Origin: Streptomyces sp. TBY4
GTDB lineage: Bacteria > Actinomycetota > Actinomycetes > Streptomycetales > Streptomycetaceae
Length of the DNA: 64,000 nt
Assembly (NCBI RefSeq): GCF_024213195.1
Contig: NZ_JANAVF010000013.1
Coordinates: 62,001-126,000, forward strand
Direction of reading: 5' to 3'
The position numbers and the translations under genes are program-made. A model generated the notes under the pieces. That model had not been told where the DNA came from. It ran no database searches and saw nothing but the letters and a program-made list of their open reading frames with translations. Shown one piece after another: positions 4,066 through 16,078 of the stretch (position 1 is its first letter; the number at the start of each line of letters is the position of its first letter).

Positions 4066-7000
4066 CTAACGCTCCTGGTCATAGCTGTTACTTGACTGCT
4101 CGGATCCCGCATTGCGGCCCTGCTGGACGCCGCGTCGCAGGTTGCTCAACCTGCCACGGATGTCCTCCGGGGCACGGGAGACCTCGGGGCCTCCCTGCGG
4201 CGTCGTCTCCGCAGCGCCCTCGACCAGGTTGGCCTTGGGCACCCGCCGGGGGAGACCGGAGGGGGTGACCCCGCCGGCCTTCGGCTCGCGGAGCTTGGCG
4301 GCCTGCTGCCAGCGCTCGTCGTTGTTCGAGCGCCAGTCGGCGGTTCCGTCCGTTCCCTCGGTGGCCTTCTCCGGAGCCGCGGGCTGCTGCTGACGCTGCG
4401 GCCGCTGCTCGAAGAGGTAACCGGAGGACTCCGTTTCCTGCTGTCCCGGCCGCTGCTGCGGCTGGCTGCCGCGTCGCGGCAGGCCCGCCCCGGTCACCTG
4501 GTGGCCGGCGTCGGCGGTGGCGCCCGGACGGTCGAAGCCTACGCGTTCCGGGGCCGGTTCGGGAGCGGCCGGTGATTCCGATTCGGTCCCGTAATCCTGC
4601 TGGTAGGAGCCCGAGTAGGTGTTCTGCTGGGGCCACTCCGCCGCCGTGGAGCTGGAGTCGTACCCGCCGTCGTAGGCCGGGATCTCCTGTCGCTGATCCG
4701 TGTACCCGGGTTCCGGATAGCCGTACTCCTGCTGGGTGTACGCGTCGTATCCCTGCCCGGCCTGAGCGGATTCGTAACCGAGGTCGTAGCCCTGCGCGGG
4801 CTGCTGCTCGTAGCCCTGGTACGGCTGGTACGCGTGCTCCGGCTGGGGTTCCGGATAGTCGGCCGCCGGCTCCTCGTACGGGGCCTCGCCGTACGGGGCC
4901 TGCGCCTGCGGGTAGCCGACCTGCGCCTCCAGCGCCGCCCGGCGCTCCTCGCGGCCCAGGGACCGGCCGACCGGGTCGGCGACGGGCTCGTCGTAGCCCG
5001 GCTGGGGCTGGTCGGCCCGGTGGACCTCGTAGCGGGAGTCGTCGAAGCCGAGCTCGGCGGCCGTGCGCAGCGCGGCCGGCTGCTGGGCCTGCTGGCGCGG
5101 GATCATCTGGGAGACCGTGAAGTCGTCCGCCGGGATCTCCTCGCCACCGCCACCGTGGGTGATGGCGTCGGGGAGCATGACCAGCGAGGTGGTGCCGGCC
5201 GCCTCGCCCGAGGGGCGCAGCTGGACGCGGATGCCGTGCCGGTCGGCCAGCCGGCCGACCACGAACAGACCCATGCGCTGCGAGATCGCGGCGTCCACGG
5301 TCGGCGGGTTGGCCAGCTTGTGGTTGATGTCCGCGAAGTCCTCGGCGGTGAGGCCGATTCCCTTGTCGTGGATCTCGACCATCACGCGGCCGTCGGGCAG
5401 ACGGGTCGCGTTGACGCGGACCTTGGTCTGCGGGGAGGAGAAGGTGGTGGCGTTCTCCAGCAGCTCGGCGAGCAGGTGCACGAGGTCGGTCACGGCCTGG
5501 CCGTGGATCTCGGCCTCGGAGACGCCCGACAGCTCCACGCGCTCGTACTGCTCCACCTCGGAGGAGGCGGCGCGCAGGACGTCGACGAGGGGGACCGGCT
5601 GGTCCCAGCGGCGGCCCGGCTCCTCGCCCGCGAGGATGAGGAGGTTCTCGCCGTTGCGGCGCATGCGGGTGGCCAGGTGGTCCAGGCGGAAGAGGTTCTC
5701 CAGCTGGTCCGGGTCGGCCTCGTTGTTCTCCAGCTCGGTGATCAGGCTCAGCTGGCCCTCGATCAGCGACTGGTTGCGCATGGAGAGGTTCGTGAAGATC
5801 GCGTTGACGTTGCCCCGGAGGAGGGCCTGCTCGGCGGCGAGCCGGACGGCCTCCCGGTGGACCTGGTCGAAGGCGCGGGCGACCTCGCCGATCTCGTCCT
5901 GGGAGTCGATCGGGATCGGCAGCACCCGGGTGTCGACCTTGCCCGGGTCGGTGCGCGAGAGCTGGTCGACGAGCATCGGCAGGCGCTGCTCGGCGATGTC
6001 GAAGGCGGCGCCGCGCAGACGGCGCATGGCCTTGCCCATCTGGCGGGCCATCATGCCGGCCAGGATGAAGGCGGCGAGCAGGGCCACGACCACGATGGCG
6101 CCGGTCAGGATGGCGTCGCTGCGGGCCTCGTCGGAGACGGCGCCCGAGTCCTTGAGGGCCTTGGCGAGGAGTTCCTTCTCCAGCTCGGCGTAACCGTCGA
6201 ACTTGGCGGTGGCGGCGGCCTGCCACGCCTGCGGGGTGGTGCCGTCCAGCGCGAGCTTGGCGGGCTTCTCGCCGCTGGCTATCGCCTCGGTCATACCGGT
6301 GAGCGCGGAGTCGTTGACCACGGGCGGGGCGTGGAAGGGGGTGCCGGCCTGCTCGGCCGCCTGCTTGGCGGCGGCGAGCCGGGCGGCGCCCTCCTCGGAC
6401 TTCTTGCCCATGATCTCGCGCAGGCGTGCGACGTCCTCGTCGGTGCCGGCGGCGACGTACTCGCCGATGGCGATCTCCTCGAGGTACGCGTACGAGGAGA
6501 AGGCGACGAGCTGGGCCTTGCGGATCTCCTCGTTCGCGCTCGGGCGCACCAGCAGGTGCGTGCCCACGGAGCGCTGCAGCGAGTTCGCGGCCTTGGAGAG
6601 TTCGAGGGCGTAGACCATGCGGCCGTACGAGGTCACGTTGCCGGTGCCGAGACCGAGCTCGTTGGAGAACTGCATGAGGTAGTGCTGGACCAGCACGTAC
6701 CCCTCTTCGGTCGGGATCGGTCCCATGGCCTTGGGGAGGGCCTTCTTCGGCGTCTCGAGCGCCGCCTGGTAGGCCGTCTTGCGGACCTGCTCCAGCTTCG
6801 GCTCCTCCTGGCGGAAGAGCTCCAGGCGGCGTTCCAGGCCCTGGCCCTCGGGCAGGTCCTTCACGGACTCGGCGAACTTCGCCTTGGCCGCGTCGGTGGC
6901 GGAGTACGCCTTCAGGACGGCCTCGGACTCGCGCTGGCCCTTGAGCAGGGGATCGGCCGTCAGGTCGCGCTCGTTCAGCAGCGCCTGGCCGTACTCGGCG

Positions 7001-7290
7001 GCGGCCTGGACGATGGCGGCGGTCTTCTCCGCGTCCTTGGCCTCGTCCCAGGTGTCGATCGAGCCCTTCACCTGGAAGCCGCCCATGACCAGTCCGACGA
7101 GGACCGGGACGAGCAGGATGGCGTTCAGACGGGTCGGCACGCGCCAGTTGCGGGGCGAGAACCTGCTGGTGCTTCCGCCGCTCACGGATGGTTCCACGGG
7201 TACGTCAAGGGGAGACGCGGCCGCGCGCGGCGGCGGGGTGAAGTTGCCGCGCGCGGGTTCATCCGCGGGGCTCGAGTTGCTTCGCCTCAC
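4066..7290 (-). CDS. cvnA2: Conservon sensor histidine kinase-like protein CvnA
   Basis: A 1074-residue membrane protein. There is a basic/Pro-rich cytoplasmic head, a first membrane segment near 57-76, and an extracytoplasmic helical sensor of about 315 residues (nitrate/nitrite-sensor-like). A second membrane segment lies near 393-414, followed by a HAMP-like linker and a GHKL ATPase domain with N-box LLAELLENA (606-614) and G1 box HDKGIGL (641-647). The last 350 residues are Gln/Pro/Tyr-rich with YEQQP- and GYD-type repeats. A canonical phospho-acceptor H-box is not obvious, which is usual for CvnA. GTG start; the stop is one base from cvnB2. It heads a four-gene operon. Confidence 0.9.
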   Translation of the reverse strand: MRRSNSSPADEPARGNFTPPPRAAASPLDVPVEPSVSGGSTSRFSPRNWRVPTRLNAILLVPVLVGLVMGGFQVKGSIDTWDEAKDAEKTAAIVQAAAEYGQALLNERDLTADPLLKGQRESEAVLKAYSATDAAKAKFAESVKDLPEGQGLERRLELFRQEEPKLEQVRKTAYQAALETPKKALPKAMGPIPTEEGYVLVQHYLMQFSNELGLGTGNVTSYGRMVYALELSKAANSLQRSVGTHLLVRPSANEEIRKAQLVAFSSYAYLEEIAIGEYVAAGTDEDVARLREIMGKKSEEGAARLAAAKQAAEQAGTPFHAPPVVNDSALTGMTEAIASGEKPAKLALDGTTPQAWQAAATAKFDGYAELEKELLAKALKDSGAVSDEARSDAILTGAIVVVALLAAFILAGMMARQMGKAMRRLRGAAFDIAEQRLPMLVDQLSRTDPGKVDTRVLPIPIDSQDEIGEVARAFDQVHREAVRLAAEQALLRGNVNAIFTNLSMRNQSLIEGQLSLITELENNEADPDQLENLFRLDHLATRMRRNGENLLILAGEEPGRRWDQPVPLVDVLRAASSEVEQYERVELSGVSEAEIHGQAVTDLVHLLAELLENATTFSSPQTKVRVNATRLPDGRVMVEIHDKGIGLTAEDFADINHKLANPPTVDAAISQRMGLFVVGRLADRHGIRVQLRPSGEAAGTTSLVMLPDAITHGGGGEEIPADDFTVSQMIPRQQAQQPAALRTAAELGFDDSRYEVHRADQPQPGYDEPVADPVGRSLGREERRAALEAQVGYPQAQAPYGEAPYEEPAADYPEPQPEHAYQPYQGYEQQPAQGYDLGYESAQAGQGYDAYTQQEYGYPEPGYTDQRQEIPAYDGGYDSSSTAAEWPQQNTYSGSYQQDYGTESESPAAPEPAPERVGFDRPGATADAGHQVTGAGLPRRGSQPQQRPGQQETESSGYLFEQRPQRQQQPAAPEKATEGTDGTADWRSNNDERWQQAAKLREPKAGGVTPSGLPRRVPKANLVEGAAETTPQGGPEVSRAPEDIRGRLSNLRRGVQQGRNAGSEQSSNSYDQER

Positions 7291-9131: not shown

Positions 9132-12100
9132 CTATCGCTCCTGCTGGTAAGTGGGGTCGATGTGGTAACTGCCGGTGGCCGGGCCGGTGGTGCCGGCCTG
9201 CCGTCCCTGCTGGATACCGCGTCGGAGGTTGGTGAGACGGCCACGGACATCGTCCGGGGACCGCGAAACCTGGGGGCCGGCCTGTGCTTCGGCCTGCTGC
9301 TGCGCGGTGCCGGCCACGAGGTTCGCCCGCGGGACCCGGCGGGGCAGCCCCGACGTCGTGATGCCGCCGGCGGCGGGCTGGCGCACGCGCTCGGCCTGCC
9401 GCATCAGCTCGTCGTTCGGCGAGGAGCGCCAGCTCACGGTCGGCACCGCGCCCGTGGCCGTCTGCGCGGACTCGGCCGGAGCCTGCTCCTGGCCGCGCTG
9501 CGGCAGCTGGTGCTGCTGCGGGCGCTGCGGGGCGGCCGGAGCCGCCGGGGCGGGCTGCTGAGCCTGCTGCGGCACCGCCGGCACCTGGGCCGGGGCCTGG
9601 CCCGCCTCCTGGCGGAACCAGTTCGACTCCAGCGTGTCGAAGATCGGGCTGCGACCCTCGCCGGAACCCGAACCGGCCGGGGGCAGCGCCTCCGGACGGG
9701 GCGCCTGCGGCAGCCGCGGAGCCTCGGCGCGCGGCGGCGGTACGGGGGCGTAGTCGCCCTGGGGCTGCGGGGCCTGGCCGGGCTGGGCGTAGCCGCCGAC
9801 GCCGGGGCCGCCGGGCCGCTGGGCCTGGAAGTCCTGGCGGGCGAACTGCCCCGTGGCGGCCGGGTCGCCGAAGTCCTGGCGGGCGAACTGGCCGGTGGAG
9901 GCCGGGTCGCCGAACTCGGGGCGGGCGAACTGGCCCGTGGTGCCGTTGTCGTAGCCGCCCGTGCCGCCGGCCTGCGGGGCCGGGGCGTTGAAGTCGGGCC
10001 GGGGGAACTCGGAGGTGGAACCGGGGCCCGACAGCTCGTCGTGGCCGCGCGGTACGTCGTGACCGCCCTGGGCCGCGCCCCACGTGGTGGTCTGGGGCAT
10101 CGCGGCAGGTCCGCCGCCGGCGCCCGGGAGCTCCGGGCGGGGCGCGCCACCGCGCGGCGGCAGCTGCGGCCGGGGACCGCGCGCACCGGGGCCGCCGGCC
10201 TGCTGCTGACCCTGCTGCTGCGGGGCCTGCTGCTGGGGCTGGGACTGGTGAGGCTGCGGGGGCTGCTGGCCCTGCTGCTGCGGAGGCTGCGGGCGCTCGA
10301 AGCCGTTGCCCTGCGGGAACCCGCCGGGACCGGACGCCGTGGGGGCGCCGACCGGACGGGCCTGCGGACCGCCGAAGCCGCCCGGGCCGCCGGGAGACGG
10401 GACCGGACCGCGGCCCGGGAGCGGAGCACCCGAACCGAAGGCGCTCTGGGTCTGGCCGCCGGGGCCCTGCTGCTGCGGGGGCCGTCCGCCCTGCGGGCCG
10501 GGGCCCTGGGGCTGACCGCCGGGGCCGCCGTCGCGGCCCGGCAGGGCCGCGCGCTGGCCGGCGGCGGAAACCTGGCCGCGCTGCGGGGCCGCGCCCACGG
10601 GGGGACGTCCGCCGGGAGCGGGGATCGAGCCCTGCGCCTGGGCGCCGGGACCACCCTGGCCCGGGGCGCCGGGCGCACCCTGACCGCCCTGACCGGGCAT
10701 CGGGGCCGGCTTCTTGCCGCCCTGGGCGACGTCCACCGGGAGCATGACGAGGGCCGTCGTACCGCCCGAGTCGGAGGGGCGCAGCTGGATGCGGATGCCG
10801 TGTCGCAGGGACAGGCGGCCGACCACGAACAGACCCATGCGGCGGGAGACGGAGACGTCCACGGTGGGCGGCGAGGCGAGCCGCTCGTTGATCGCGGCGA
10901 GGTCCTCGGGGGAGAGGCCGATGCCGGTGTCGTGGATCTCGACGAGCACGCGGCCGTCGGGCAGCGCGTGACCGGTGACCTTGACCTTGGTCTGCGGGGA
11001 GGAGAACGAGGTGGCGTTCTCCAGCAGCTCGGCGAGCAGGTGCACGAGGTCGTTGACCACGCGGCCGGCGACGTCGGTGCCGGGCACCGAGGAGAGTTCG
11101 ATGCGCTCGTACTGCTCCACCTCGGACGCGGCGGCGCGGAGCACGTCGACGAGCGGGACGGGGCGGGTCCACCGGCGGCCCGGCTCCTCGCCCGCGAGGA
11201 CGAGGAGGTTTTCGCCGTTACGGCGCATGCGGGTCGCGAGGTGGTCGAGCTTGAAGAGCGAGGACAGCTGGTCCGGGTCGGCCTCGCGCGACTCCAGCTC
11301 GGAGATGAGCGAGAGCTGGCGCTGGATGAGGCCCTGCGAACGGCGCGAGAGGTTGGTGAACATCGCGTTGACGTTGCCTCGCAGGAGGGCCTGCTCGGCG
11401 GCGAGGCGGACGGCCTCGCGGTGCACGTCGTCGAAGGCCGCGGCCACCTGGCCGATCTCGTCGCGGGTGTGCAGGCCGACGGACTCCACCGTCGTGTCCA
11501 CGTCCTGCGGGTCGGACTCGGACAGCTGCTTGACGAGCTCGGGCAGCCGGTCCTGGGCGACGCGGGTCGCGGTGTCCTGCAGGCGGCGCAGGGAGCGGAT
11601 CATCGAGCGGGCCATGACGAAGGCGCCGACGAGGGAGACACCGAGGACGATGAGGATCAGCGCACCGTTGATGAGGGCGTCGCGCTGCGACTCGTTCTTG
11701 AGCTCGCGGGCCTTCTGCTCCATGTCCTCGAGCAGGGTGAGCTCGATGACCTTCATGGCCTGCAGCTTGGTGTCGTCCGCGTCGTACCAGTCCATCCAGG
11801 ACCGGTTCTTCTCCTTGGCGAACTGGTCCTTGTTGCCCAGGACGCGGCGGGCGTAGTGGTCCGCGGTGGCGATTTCCTGGTTGCCGTCGCCGAGCGCCGC
11901 GAGGAGCTCCTCGGGCTTGCCCTGGTAGACGAGCTCGAAGGTCTTGCGCGCCTGCTCCTCGCTGTTCTGGGCGGAGCGGGCGTACAGGCGGTCGTTCTCG
12001 GTGAGGTTGCCCGGCAGCGAGGGGTCCGCGGGGAGCGCGGCCGCGATGATCGCGCGCTGGATCGAGGCGTACTCCTTGGCGGAGGAGAACGCGGCCAGCG

Positions 12101-12929
12101 CGCGGGTGCGCTTGATCATCTCGGGGTTCGAGGTGGCCTGGGCCATGTCCTGCGAGAGCGAGAGCAGCGAGACGACCAGCGCGTTGTACTCGGTGACGGT
12201 CTGCTGGGCGCCGTTCTGGTACGCGTACTTGCGGATCTCTTCGAGGTTGTTGAGCCCGTGCGCGATCTGCAGGATGTTGTTGCGGATCGACCGGAGCGTC
12301 TCGTCGTTGCCCTCGGCGACGTCGACCTTGTCGGTCGCGGCGGCGAAGGCCCGGACGGCGGAGTCGGTCGAGTCGCGGACGCCCTGGACCAGGGTGCTGG
12401 GCTTGCCCGACTTGTCCACGGACAGCGGACCGGCGGAGTTGTCGCGCTCGGCCTGGAGCATGGCGGCCAGGTTGGTGGCCTGACGCGTCATCGTCGTCAG
12501 CAGCTGCATGTGCTCCAGCTGCGCGATGTCGTTGAGCGAGTCGTTGATGCGGAGGCCACCGAGGGTGGTGGCGGCGACGACCGGCAGGGTCAGCAGCGAC
12601 ACCAGTCGCGTGCTGATGCGCCAGTTCTGCATGGCCAGACGGGAACCGGTGCCACGGGGGGCCTGGGGTATCGCGACGTCGCGGCCGCCCGACTCGTCGT
12701 CGGCCTTCGAGCCGCCCTTGGGCTTGGCGCGCCCCTTGGCCTTGACCGCGGCGGAGCCGACAGGGCCCGCGGGGCTCCCGCTCTCGACAGCCGGCCCGCG
12801 GTTCTGGGCGTGCTGGGGCGAGGAGCCACGGTCGGTCCCGCCGCGCGGGTCCTGCTCCGGCGCGGCGTCCCCACGGCCCTGACGGGCCTGGGGAGACCCC
12901 TTGTCATCCCTCTTGAATCGTCCCTGCAC
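9132..12929 (-). CDS. cvnA1: Conservon sensor histidine kinase-like protein CvnA
   Basis: A protein of about 1265 residues. It has a basic N-terminal head and a membrane segment around SLLTLPVVAATTLGGL, then a large extracytoplasmic helical sensor. A second membrane segment (ALILIVLGVSLVGAFVMA) leads into a HAMP-like linker and a GHKL ATPase domain (LLAELLENATSF; HDTGIGLS). The tail of more than 450 residues is Gly/Pro/Gln-rich and contains tandem GQFARPEFGDPA-like units. The sensor domain differs clearly from CvnA2 while the ATPase core is similar, so the two conservons probably read different signals. GTG start chosen with GAGG upstream; a longer frame upstream is of atypical composition. 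Confidence 0.9.
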   Translation of the reverse strand: MQGRFKRDDKGSPQARQGRGDAAPEQDPRGGTDRGSSPQHAQNRGPAVESGSPAGPVGSAAVKAKGRAKPKGGSKADDESGGRDVAIPQAPRGTGSRLAMQNWRISTRLVSLLTLPVVAATTLGGLRINDSLNDIAQLEHMQLLTTMTRQATNLAAMLQAERDNSAGPLSVDKSGKPSTLVQGVRDSTDSAVRAFAAATDKVDVAEGNDETLRSIRNNILQIAHGLNNLEEIRKYAYQNGAQQTVTEYNALVVSLLSLSQDMAQATSNPEMIKRTRALAAFSSAKEYASIQRAIIAAALPADPSLPGNLTENDRLYARSAQNSEEQARKTFELVYQGKPEELLAALGDGNQEIATADHYARRVLGNKDQFAKEKNRSWMDWYDADDTKLQAMKVIELTLLEDMEQKARELKNESQRDALINGALILIVLGVSLVGAFVMARSMIRSLRRLQDTATRVAQDRLPELVKQLSESDPQDVDTTVESVGLHTRDEIGQVAAAFDDVHREAVRLAAEQALLRGNVNAMFTNLSRRSQGLIQRQLSLISELESREADPDQLSSLFKLDHLATRMRRNGENLLVLAGEEPGRRWTRPVPLVDVLRAAASEVEQYERIELSSVPGTDVAGRVVNDLVHLLAELLENATSFSSPQTKVKVTGHALPDGRVLVEIHDTGIGLSPEDLAAINERLASPPTVDVSVSRRMGLFVVGRLSLRHGIRIQLRPSDSGGTTALVMLPVDVAQGGKKPAPMPGQGGQGAPGAPGQGGPGAQAQGSIPAPGGRPPVGAAPQRGQVSAAGQRAALPGRDGGPGGQPQGPGPQGGRPPQQQGPGGQTQSAFGSGAPLPGRGPVPSPGGPGGFGGPQARPVGAPTASGPGGFPQGNGFERPQPPQQQGQQPPQPHQSQPQQQAPQQQGQQQAGGPGARGPRPQLPPRGGAPRPELPGAGGGPAAMPQTTTWGAAQGGHDVPRGHDELSGPGSTSEFPRPDFNAPAPQAGGTGGYDNGTTGQFARPEFGDPASTGQFARQDFGDPAATGQFARQDFQAQRPGGPGVGGYAQPGQAPQPQGDYAPVPPPRAEAPRLPQAPRPEALPPAGSGSGEGRSPIFDTLESNWFRQEAGQAPAQVPAVPQQAQQPAPAAPAAPQRPQQHQLPQRGQEQAPAESAQTATGAVPTVSWRSSPNDELMRQAERVRQPAAGGITTSGLPRRVPRANLVAGTAQQQAEAQAGPQVSRSPDDVRGRLTNLRRGIQQGRQAGTTGPATGSYHIDPTYQQER
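9830..9945 (-). repeat. Tandem repeat in the CvnA1 tail
   Basis: Three tandem units of about 36 bases encode GQFAR(P/Q)(E/D)F-type dodecapeptides near the C-terminal tail of CvnA1, each starting TGQFAR. They are coding repeats in a disordered region, likely to vary in copy number between strains. Confidence 0.7.
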
Positions 12930-13531
12930 TAGCGTCGCAACCTCTGGACCAGGCGTCCCGCCGGGCGACCGGTGGGACGGTGTCGAGTCGTGGGGCAATG
13001 CGCCCCATGGTGGTCGTCGGTGACCGGCGCGTCTCCCTCTCCGTTGCCGCCGCGCTCGGCGCTGTCTCGCGCCACCTGCGCGCCGGCTGATTCCCGCGGC
13101 GGTCCCGCGAATTCCAGCACAGAGGCGGATCTCCAACAAGGTGCGAGTCCTGGGCCGGGGAGTCGGTCACGTCGGGTGACGCATGTGCTACCCGACGTGC
13201 GTGCCAATTCATACGGAATCGGACTTACGCCGCCCAAACCTCGCCTCTGGCAAGCTGTCCCAGTCGCGATGATCGGGAGCGGAATGGCGCATTCAGTGGC
13301 GCAATGTCCGCTTTATGGGGTGGAATTGACTGACCCTTATGTCCGTAATGCCTGGTCGCTGGTGAGCAAACTCACATAGCCGTGGCCATTACTTCCCGGT
13401 TCGGCGGGGGATTCAGATGTTTAGCCTTGAGCTTTACAGGCTTGCCGCGAGCGACAAGCGGCACTCCGAAGGCAATCCGGCGGCGCCCGCCGCCACCATC
13501 CGACCTAGTGAGCCGAGGGCTTCGCACTCCG
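12930..13531. other. Long divergent intergenic region between cvnA1 and the repeat mini-protein gene
   Basis: About 600 bases with no convincing gene. The half nearer the mini-protein is noticeably A/T-richer than the surroundings. An inverted repeat GTGAG-CAAA-CTCAC lies at 13362-13375, and a TTGACT hexamer at 13326-13331. These are candidates for control of the rightward gene. The left part must hold the cvn1 promoter. Open frames through the region lack third-position G/C bias and recognisable domains. Confidence 0.5.
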
Positions 13532-13714
13532 ATGAAGACGACGATGATGTTCCGCAACATAGCCAACCCGCGCCGCACCACCCTCGCGCACCTCAAGGAC
13601 GCCGAGGAGCTGCAGGCCGTGCCGGTCCCGGAGCACACCGTCGAGCTGCCGGCCCAGACCGCGAACCCGCGCCGCACCACCCTCATGAACGCGCCGGTCG
13701 CCGCCGCGCAGTAA
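13532..13714 (+). CDS. Small protein with duplicated ANPRRTTL motif
   Basis: A 60-residue protein of unknown function. The codons show strong third-position G/C bias, so it is real. The octapeptide ANPRRTTL occurs at residues 11-18 and again at 44-51, encoded by nearly identical 24-base stretches 99 bases apart. Between them is an acidic helix-like segment (LKDAEELQAV) and a Pro/Glu-rich stretch. There is no signal peptide, membrane segment or cysteine. Start: ATG with a weak GAGGG far upstream; a second in-frame ATG (residue 5) is possible. It is divergent from cvnA1 and upstream of the FAH gene. I do not recognise the family beyond a faint memory of similar small streptomycete proteins. It could be a regulator, a scaffold or a modified-peptide precursor. 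Confidence 0.75.
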   Translation: MKTTMMFRNIANPRRTTLAHLKDAEELQAVPVPEHTVELPAQTANPRRTTLMNAPVAAAQ

Positions 13715-13818: not shown

Positions 13819-14607
13819 GTGCGCATCGCCAGGTTCTCGATCGACGGCAATGTCGCGTTCGGCGCGGTCGAGGGCAGCACTGCCCTCGGCGCCGAAGGTG
13901 AGCTCGTCCTCGACATCATCAAGGGCATCCCGTTCGCGGACTTCGAGCTCTCCGGCACGAAGGTCCCGCTGAGCAAGGTCCGGCTGCTGCCGCCCGTGCT
14001 CCCGAACAAGGTCGTGGCCATCGGCCGCAACTACCGGGAGCACGCGGCGGAGCTGGGCAACGAGGTCCCGGACGTCCCGATCACCTTCTTCAAGCCCTCC
14101 ACCTCGGTGGTCGGCCCCGGCGACCCGATCGCCTACCCCTCCTTCTCCCAGGACCTCCACCACGAGGCGGAGCTCGCCGTGGTCATCGGCCGCATGTGCC
14201 GCGAGGTCCCGCGCGAGCGCGTCAAGGACGTCATCCTCGGCTACACCTGCGCCAACGACGTCACCGCGCGCGACGTCCAGCAGCGCGAGAAGCAGTGGGC
14301 CCGCGCCAAGGGCTTCGACAGCTCCTGCCCCCTCGGCCCGTGGATCGAGACCGACCTCGACCCGAGCGACCTGACCATCCAGTGCACCGTCAACGGCGAA
14401 CAGCGCCAGCTCGGCCGCACCAGCGACATGGTCCGCTCCATCGAGGACCTGATCGTGCACATCACCGAGGCCATGACGCTGCTCCCGGGCGACGTCATCC
14501 TCACGGGGACCCCGGCCGGAGTCGGCCCCCTGAACGTCGGCGACGAGGTCGCCGTCACCATCGAAGGCATCGGCACTCTCACCAACAAGGTGATCAAGCG
14601 TGGCTAA
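13819..14607 (+). CDS. Fumarylacetoacetate hydrolase family protein
   Basis: A 262-residue FAH-superfamily enzyme. The N-terminal part ([14 protein letters not shown]) is the small lid domain. The C-terminal catalytic fold carries the metal-binding pattern [11 protein letters not shown] and CANDVTARD, and ends [17 protein letters not shown]. Relatives cleave C-C bonds in acylpyruvates or decarboxylate oxaloacetate; the exact substrate cannot be read. The GTG start follows AGAGGGG. Its stop overlaps the gltX start by eight bases, so the two are translated together. This pairing is conserved in Streptomyces as far as I recall. Confidence 0.88.
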
Positions 14608-16078
14608 CGCGACCCCCCGCGTACGTTTCTGTCCGTCCCCGACCGGCAACCCCCACGTGGGTCTGGTCCGCACGGCCCTCTTCAACTGGGCGTTCGCCCG
14701 CCACCACGGCGGTACGTTCGTCTTCCGCATCGAGGACACCGACGCGGCGCGCGACTCCGAGGAGTCGTACGTCCAGCTGCTCGACTCGCTGCGCTGGCTC
14801 GGCTTCACCTGGGACGAGGGCCCCGAGGTCGGCGGCCCGCACGCCCCGTACCGCCAGTCCGAGCGCATGGACATCTACAAGGACGTCGCGCAGAAGCTCC
14901 AGGACGGCGGCTACGCCTACTCCTGCTACTGCACCACCGAGGAGCTGGACGCCCGCCGCGACGCGGCCCGCGCCGCCGGCAAGCCCTCCGGCTACGACGG
15001 CACCTGCCGCGAGCTCTCCGCGGAGCAGAAGGCCGCGTACGAGGCCGAGGGCCGCTCCTCGATCGTCCGCTTCCGGATGCCCGACGAGCCCATCACCTTC
15101 ACGGACCTGGTCCGCGGCGAGCTGACCTTCACCCCCGACAACGTGCCGGACTTCGGCATCGTCCGGGCCAACGGCGCCCCGCTCTACACGCTCGTCAACC
15201 CGGTCGACGACGCGCTGATGGAGATCACCCACGTCCTGCGCGGCGAGGACCTGCTGTCCTCCACCCCGCGCCAGATCGCGCTCTACGGGGCCCTGATCGA
15301 GCTCGGCGTCGCCAAGGCGGTGCCCGCCTTCGGCCACCTGCCGTACGTGATGGGCGAGGGCAACAAGAAGCTCTCCAAGCGCGACCCCGAGGCCTCGCTC
15401 AACCTCTACCGCGAGCGTGGCTTCCTCCCCGAGGGCCTGCTGAACTACCTGTCCCTCCTGGGCTGGTCCTTCTCCAAGGACCAGGACATCTTCTCGATCG
15501 AGGAGATGGTGGCGAAGTTCGACATCCCGGACGTCAACGCCAACCCGGCGCGCTTCGACCTCAAGAAGGCCGAGTCGATCAACGCCGACCACATCCGCCT
15601 CCTGGACCCGAAGGTCTTCGCGGACCGCTGCGCCCCGTGGCTGCAGGCCCCGCACGCCAACTGGGCACCCGAGGACTTCGACACCGCCGCCTGGGAGCGC
15701 ATCGCGCCGTACGCCCAGACCCGCGTCACGGTCCTCTCGGACATCACGGCCAACGTCGACTTCCTCTTCCTGAAGGAGCCGGTGGAGGACCAGGCGTCGT
15801 GGGACAAGGCGATGAAGGGCGACCCGGCGGCCCTCCTCACCACGGCCCGCGAGAACCTGGCCGCGGCCGACTGGTCGGACCCGGAGTCCCTCAAGCAGGC
15901 GGTCCTCACCGCCGGCGAGACCCACGGCCTCAAGCTCGGCAAGGCCCAGGCCCCGGTCCGCGTGGCCGTCACCGGCCGCACGGTCGGCCTCCCCCTCTTC
16001 GAGTCCCTCGAAATCCTGGGCAAGGACCGCTCCCTGTCCCGCATCGACGCCACCCTGGCCAAGCTCACCGCCGCGTAG
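14600..16078 (+). CDS. gltX: Glutamyl-tRNA synthetase
   Basis: A 492-residue class I aminoacyl-tRNA synthetase. The HIGH-type motif is [10 protein letters not shown] (12-21) and the KMSKS-type motif is KLSKR (257-261). The C-terminal helical anticodon-binding domain is complete. Actinobacteria generally lack glutaminyl-tRNA synthetase, so this enzyme is expected to charge both tRNA-Glu and tRNA-Gln, the latter corrected by GatCAB. Genes for both tRNAs lie 1 kb downstream. GTG start, overlapping the previous gene. A strong hairpin follows. Confidence 0.96.

Follow-up and report, generated by a model that had tools for sequence, protein, structure and literature searches.

The 64,000-nucleotide stretch of the Streptomyces sp. 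TBY4 genome considered here (hereafter the window; contig NZ_JANAVF010000013.1) contains, on the forward strand at positions 13532-13714, a gene whose 60-residue product, MKTTMMFRNIANPRRTTLAHLKDAEELQAVPVPEHTVELPAQTANPRRTTLMNAPVAAAQ, carries the octapeptide ANPRRTTL twice, as copy 1 at residues 11-18 (13562-13585) and as copy 2 at residues 44-51 (13661-13684). We find that this open reading frame (ORF) is a real gene and that its conserved element is the protein motif ANPRRTxL, in two copies, both under protein-level selection, whereas the linker is free to vary. The observation is thus confirmed: the mini-protein is uncharacterized, occurs across the family, is under selection and is clearly built on two motifs. 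The interpretation first offered for it is partly supported. With a probability of about 0.5, the product is a cytosolic intrinsically disordered protein that acts as a bivalent docking peptide, carrying two short motifs on a flexible linker.

The least biased test of the motif was made on 59 loci from 59 genomes, taken at profile-hit coordinates irrespective of the motif. Of these loci, which were picked from the hit lists, 20 are lower-scoring hits of the window's own genus and 39 belong to other genera. All 59 contain two recognizable copies, and the expectation voiced in a first-pass annotation of the window, that homologues would retain both motifs while the linker varies, was confirmed in this way. 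The hexapeptide ANPRRT is exact in copy 1 at 55 of the 59 loci and in copy 2 at 50; departures from it always concern a single residue, with Q, K, G or E at the first Arg and S, A or I at the Thr. In copy 1 the eighth position is Leu 57 times out of 59 (L261 and L262 have V there, the latter reading ANPKRT..V), and in copy 2 just as often. Measured in 58 of the loci, the spacing between the hexapeptides is 26 residues at the least and 45 at the most; beyond that set it extends from 24 (L141) to 48 (L136). Two genomes of one genus (loci L258 and L259) encode a protein that stops right after motif 2, as TANPRRTVR-stop, with Arg at the eighth position. At another locus (L123, 3049-3381), a third TANPRRT lies in frame, 5' of the usual start, and may represent either a version with three motifs or a relic.

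A broader set of 140 sequences was composed of these 59 loci, 80 close relatives and the window's own sequence, with both copies in view in 139. The close relatives are the best 80 of at least 395 (79 from Streptomyces and one from Kitasatospora, 71-92% identical in the best segment) and were found by six seed patterns, among which ANPRRTTL and AQTANPRR fall inside the motifs. The consensus over the 140 sequences is [I/T]-A-N-P-R-R-T-x-L-A-H for copy 1 and T-A-N-P-R-R-T-[V/I]-L-M for copy 2; A, N, P, the second R and L are nearly invariant in both copies. In a separate alignment of 36 sequences (A2, the others being 35-84% identical to that of the window), the invariant residues are A11, N12, P13, R15 and T16 on the one hand and T43, A44, N45, R48 and T49 on the other, so that copy 2 has an invariant Thr just before it. 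The first Arg of motif 2 tolerates K, Q, G, E or N. Position 50, also in copy 2, is V in 41, I in 35 and T in five of 81 close sequences, relatives usually reading ANPRRT[V/I]L there. One point of the initial description consequently needs correction: identical octapeptides and an exact 21-nucleotide repeat are a peculiarity of this and a few other strains.

Selection on the frame was estimated from the 81 close sequences as the ratio of nonsynonymous to synonymous divergence (dN/dS, pooled Nei-Gojobori). A value near 1 had been named as an outcome that would speak against the initial idea; the frame gave 0.33 as a whole. By segment, residues 2-10 have a ratio of 0.38, residues 19-27 one of 0.33, the linker core (28-38) 0.73, residues 39-43 0.15 and the tail 0.59, against 0 for motif 1 and 0.10 for motif 2, two values that are biased downwards by the seed patterns lying in the motifs (motif 1 most) and that for this reason argue less strongly for our interpretation; the 59-locus test is free of that bias. 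The variable acidic linker (residues 19-43, 13586-13660) has better-conserved flanks, AHLxDA and LPxxT. Motif codons drift synonymously in both copies (Pro13, for example, is CCG in 48 and CCC in 33). The constraint therefore bears on the peptide and not on the DNA, and the exact 21-base repeat is itself not conserved.

In the window, translation of the ORF agrees with what had been read from its letters. The two identical octapeptides start 33 residues apart, with 25 residues between the copies, and are encoded by an exact repeat of 21 nucleotides, AACCCGCGCCGCACCACCCTC, within a 24-nucleotide stretch that has one mismatch (13562-13585 and 13661-13684). The protein was shuffled 200,000 times with its composition preserved, and no exact repeat exceeded seven residues, a length reached three times, compared with the eight observed. 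The protein has no cysteine, as had been stated, and neither Cys nor Trp occurs in any of the 140 sequences; in accordance with the claim that it has no export signal, a signal sequence was not seen by eye. The start codon was placed by conservation, which in the 81 close sequences runs from MKTT onward (GTG in 43, ATG in 37 and CAG in one). In the homologue at locus L003, CAG is found at the usual start position (6001), and the start must be elsewhere. A longer frame of 110 residues from GTG 13382 was rejected, since codon-level conservation begins at MKTT and the preceding stretch is variable, with an insertion in this strain. About 35 additional bases just 5' of the gene (13465-13499) are present in this strain and absent from most of the 81 aligned sequences.

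The gene is limited to the Streptomyces family as far as sampled, and near-universal inside it. A profile search over 150 sampled genomes of the family gave a match in 149, including the three with the weakest E-values (G001 0.41, G018 0.08 and G029 0.24) where the gene was located by reading the syntenic place. The sole exception is genome G015, in which the neighbouring genes cvnA1 and FAH (described below) are present with no such frame between them; both of its loci (L143 and L266) are without the gene. In class-wide samples (296 genomes searched with profile A1 and 393 with the wider profile A2), strong matches were confined to the window's own genus, and the others, with E-values of at least 0.0015, were judged to be chance. 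An order-wide sample of 119 genomes gave no match below E 0.03 among the 14 that lie outside the family. In a further 24 genomes, namely G015 and 23 from outside the family, the 1,500 bases that precede FAH contain no ANPRRT-type pair. The window's own genome has one strong match and three more at E 0.09, 0.5 and 4. It also contains 21 NPRRT-type matches at the DNA level (with Arg as CGN only), two of them inside the mini-protein gene; among these 21, no other ANPRRTxL was found; one 361-residue frame (L157) has ANPRRT but lacks the Leu. RNPRRT occurs in two large frames that by eye have the look of an FtsX-type permease, which was judged a chance resemblance. No curated family matches the protein in Pfam-A or NCBIfam (E up to 1 in both) or in PHROGs (E up to 10), and a search of the PDB with profile A1 gave no match at E up to 10.

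What the two motifs may do is suggested by the pattern of constraint and by a structure prediction. AlphaFold2, run with a 24-sequence alignment, returned a model with a mean predicted local distance difference test (pLDDT) score of 59.6 and a predicted template modelling (pTM) score of 0.14, in which short helices occur only at residues 13-18 and 49-52, i.e. at the motifs. We read this model as that of a chain that is disordered but could, when bound, form two N-capped helical turns. According to the docking interpretation, the mini-protein would be cytosolic and intrinsically disordered across the Streptomyces family, with a length of about 53-88 residues. Each [IT]-A-N-P-R-R-T-x-L motif would be disordered alone and would form a short Asn-Pro-capped helix on binding, with Arg-Arg-Thr exposed on one of its faces and Leu on its other face. 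The flexible acidic linker, for which length would be the only requirement, would tether both motifs, which could then grip two sites together (avidity), either on both subunits of one dimeric receptor or on two molecules. Expression from a regulatory region shared with the cvn1 operon would probably place the mini-protein in the same growth-to-development programme. The first-pass annotation had left open a docking role or a nucleic-acid contact for the motif, and docking is the part that stands as the best reading, both motifs being kept while the linker is free.

Several points weigh against this interpretation, in addition to the bias in the motif dN/dS values. Peptide production, bivalent protein binding, helix formation on binding and a developmental role are all what we infer; for this mini-protein, the partner, the structure, the peptide and the phenotype are still hypothetical, and bivalence is deduced from repetition alone. 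As proof of disorder, an AlphaFold2 monomer of low confidence carries little weight. Moreover, the copies differ consistently from each other, copy 1 being mostly followed by A-H and copy 2 standing between T and M, and they might bind two different partners. Finally, the absence of the gene from G015, which has both cvn1 and FAH, means that the mini-protein is dispensable there, and the linkage to cvn1, which may point to a task in common, may equally reflect nothing more than a shared promoter.

By position, the nearest candidate partner is the Cvn1 complex. The gene cvnA1 (9132-12929, reverse strand) encodes the sensor kinase of a conservon, with NIT, HAMP and HATPase domains, and is divergent from the mini-protein gene. 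Its start codon was chosen by eye, GTG 12929 being the likely start and TTG 13139 the longest possible one; from the likely start, the gap to the mini-protein gene is 602 bp, which substantiates the roughly 600 bases noted at first. The NIT domain covers residues 154-404 of the scanned stretch (Pfam, E 5.3e-35). On the other side lie, usually though not constantly, a gene for an FAH-family, Rv2993c-like hydrolase (13819-14607, forward strand) and then gltX, for glutamyl-tRNA synthetase (14600-16078, forward strand). The typical order is accordingly the divergent cvn1 operon, the mini-protein gene, FAH and gltX. Synteny was followed in 211 loci that were located by motif pattern, with some genomes entered twice (e.g. 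G044), and that were used for this purpose alone. Three more loci stand outside this count: L123, although it has the gene, and the two loci of G015, which lack it. All 208 testable loci have divergent cvnA1 beside the mini-protein gene, as do three loci of the most divergent genus, read on longer stretches. The suggested co-occurrence with cvn1 is borne out by these counts, with the converse exception of G015, which has cvn1 without the mini-protein.

In 199 of the 211 loci, FAH follows the mini-protein gene in the same orientation, at a median gap of 127 nt (range 35 to 1797 nt). The 12 loci (11 genomes) that have no FAH in the flank comprise eight genomes with FAH elsewhere, two with a gap of about 1.8 kb (G082 and G458) and one (G124, locus L116) that is untestable in this respect, its contig ending about 0.2 kb past the mini-protein gene. 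Among the eight, FAH lies on the opposite strand, 11-12.6 kb off, in G044, G112, G440, G459 and G462, and on another contig in G097, G115 and G456, with none within 3.8-5.5 kb downstream of the mini-protein gene. In all eight, the mini-protein gene stays beside cvnA1 and both motifs are recognizable. This apparent rearrangement, which parts cvn1 and the mini-protein gene from FAH, may go back to one inversion.

The first alternative to a docking peptide of unspecified partner has the mini-protein belong to the Cvn1 sensor complex as an accessory subunit. Each motif would bind one protomer of the dimeric CvnA1 kinase, or else the CvnB or CvnD switch proteins, and tune the signal as CvnF8 does on CvnA8. 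The constant adjacency of divergent cvnA1 and the eight genomes in which the mini-protein gene stays with cvn1 favour this idea, as does the report that CvnF8 binds and stimulates CvnA8 (PMC13343842). The accessory proteins CvnE and CvnF, however, overwhelmingly accompany CvnA kinases that have no sensory domain, according to the sections of PMC13343842 that deal with them, and CvnA1 has a NIT domain here. The conserved intergenic region suffices to account for the linkage, cvn1 occurs without the mini-protein in G015, and conservons are described as widespread in the phylum (PMC13343842), which the mini-protein is not. We consider this specific role unlikely, though it is the strongest of the alternatives; the relation to the sensor complex suggested at first fits the synteny but is unproven. 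Beyond the cvn1 genes, a second large CvnA-like kinase is encoded at 4066-7290 on the reverse strand. GLPRR is found twice in its C-terminal tail and once in that of CvnA1, and the likeness of these tails (GLPRRVPRANL) to the motif remained a weak idea.

The intergenic region between cvnA1 and the mini-protein gene contains strongly conserved blocks in the 81 aligned sequences. A conserved palindrome in this shared promoter region, GTGAGCAAACTCAC (13362-13375), is exact in 126 of 266 loci, many of which do not cover the site or repeat a genome; it resembles a CRP-type site, GTGA-N6-TCAC. Two further conserved blocks, at 13108-13141 and 13254-13287, are perhaps regulatory sites of cvnA1. Another block, at 13281-13304, matches in 18 of 24 bases the ScbR2 site predicted in the sco5544-5545 region of S. 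coelicolor; none of 2,000 shuffled sites reaches 18, and the best score elsewhere in the window is 15. From its position and this matching promoter block, the S. coelicolor orthologue of the mini-protein is apparently SCO5545, which is likewise divergent from cvnA1 (SCO5544), with the predicted ScbR2 site in that region (PMC4595836). The sco5544-5545 region is tabulated there among the ScbR2 targets confirmed by electrophoretic mobility shift assay, and the transcript changes given for the scbR2 mutant (1.024 for cvnA1 and 0.952 for sco5545) amount to none. The parts of PMC4595836 that concern SCO5545 present it as a putative uncharacterized protein and report only promoter binding and an unchanged transcript. 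A literature search on SCO5545, SCO5544-5545 and the motif letters, with subscription papers mostly outside its reach, retrieved only this article, where the gene is uncharacterized. Loss of the cvn1 conservon impairs the formation of aerial mycelium, and in S. venezuelae BldC and WhiAB bind the cvn1 promoter (PMC6428758, in the sections bearing on cvn1).

A contact of the Arg-rich repeats with DNA or RNA, of the SPKK-like or RNA-tail type, was also considered. Pro-Arg-Arg turns resemble the DNA-contacting turn of the SPKK type, and two copies could span two grooves. The protein as a whole is, however, near neutral (mean net charge +1.9 over the 59 sequences and -0.2 over the 80), its linker being strongly acidic (mean -4.4). 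In copy 2, E, G, Q or N can take the place of the first Arg, and a charge-based contact would not need Ala, Asn, Thr and Leu, which are invariant. Because of these strict residues, the tolerant first Arg of copy 2 and the near-neutral charge, we favour a protein partner, and a nucleic-acid contact, the other half of the role initially suggested for the motif, appears to us improbable.

The codon immediately 5' of motif 1 (13559-13561) is a rare ATA Ile codon that is retained in many relatives. It is ATA in 52 of the 77 sequences of the close set that have Ile there, and in 84 of 145 Ile-bearing loci when five sets are considered, partly repeating genomes and with other genera included. For comparison, six ATA were counted among 3,161 Ile codons in 226 stretches of the FAH, gltX and IclR genes (loci L001-L080), and seven among 313 Ile codons at codons 2-20 of 383 roughly called genes. 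Codons 2-10 also have the lowest synonymous divergence (dS 0.21, against 0.35-0.62 in the remaining segments). The ATA may be kept for slow AUA decoding near the start or by an overlapping nucleic-acid constraint. At its most specific, our docking interpretation would describe a family-wide linear-motif adaptor whose two ANPRRTxL plugs hold a dimeric receptor, belonging either to the Cvn1 G-protein system or to the transcription machinery, and whose synthesis is gated by the conserved rare AUA. It would be an undescribed small-protein switch in Streptomyces development; this complete scenario is a long shot.

A rare codon near the start could slow ribosomes, and in most loci FAH follows the frame on the same strand at a short median distance, two features that would suit a cis-acting leader peptide (an attenuator or an arrest peptide) controlling translation or transcription of FAH and gltX. 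The rearranged genomes led us to reject such a leader as very unlikely, because the mini-protein gene stays with cvn1, both motifs still recognizable, when FAH lies far off or on another contig. Furthermore, the distance to FAH varies from 35 to 1797 nt, gaps of 0.86-1.8 kb (L025, L057, L061, G082 and G458) leave the mini-protein intact, gltX is not near FAH in L122, L126, L129 and L135, and neither an Rfam match nor a terminator-like site was found.

Least probable of all is a precursor of a modified or secreted peptide, with the motif as its core or as a cleavage recognition site: its small size, repeated motif and conceivable proteolysis at Arg-Arg would agree with such a precursor, and the core of a modified peptide was among the early suggestions. 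Against it speak the lack of Cys or Trp in 140 sequences, the signal sequence not seen by eye, the four scanned neighbouring products (CvnA1, FAH, GltX and IclR; Pfam), none of which is a modification enzyme, and an occurrence in 149 of 150 sampled family genomes, as opposed to the scattered distribution of biosynthetic clusters.

Among known systems, the conservon accessories CvnF8 and CvnE are adjacent to conservons, as is the mini-protein, and CvnF8 modulates a CvnA kinase (PMC13343842). In the passages of that article describing them, CvnE and CvnF are GAF-domain or P450 proteins, whereas the 60-residue mini-protein has no Pfam match; it thus lacks two features that define them, namely the GAF or P450 fold and the company of a CvnA without an extracellular sensory domain. 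TrpM (SCO2038), also a small protein of Streptomyces, has ends predicted to be disordered, binds the enzyme PepA and affects differentiation; unlike the mini-protein, it is encoded within the trp locus, and the sections on TrpM in PMC5036795 mention no repeated motif. The closest in mode of action is CrsL (MSMEG_5890), a 5.7-kDa disordered actinobacterial protein that folds into a helix-turn-helix when it binds CarD and that has RNA polymerase as a further binding partner (PMC12709188). No ANPRRT repeat is reported in the sections of PMC12709188 devoted to CrsL, and the conserved MLGIGP segment described there is, by inspection, absent from the mini-protein, with no sign of common descent; CrsL therefore serves as a working model of the mini-protein and not as a relative. 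Small disordered adaptors such as CrsL and TrpM are thus known in actinobacteria. Here, the gene is family-wide in a group of major industrial and ecological weight and shares the promoter region of a development-linked conservon, and its two strictly kept motifs on a free linker offer unusually clean test points.
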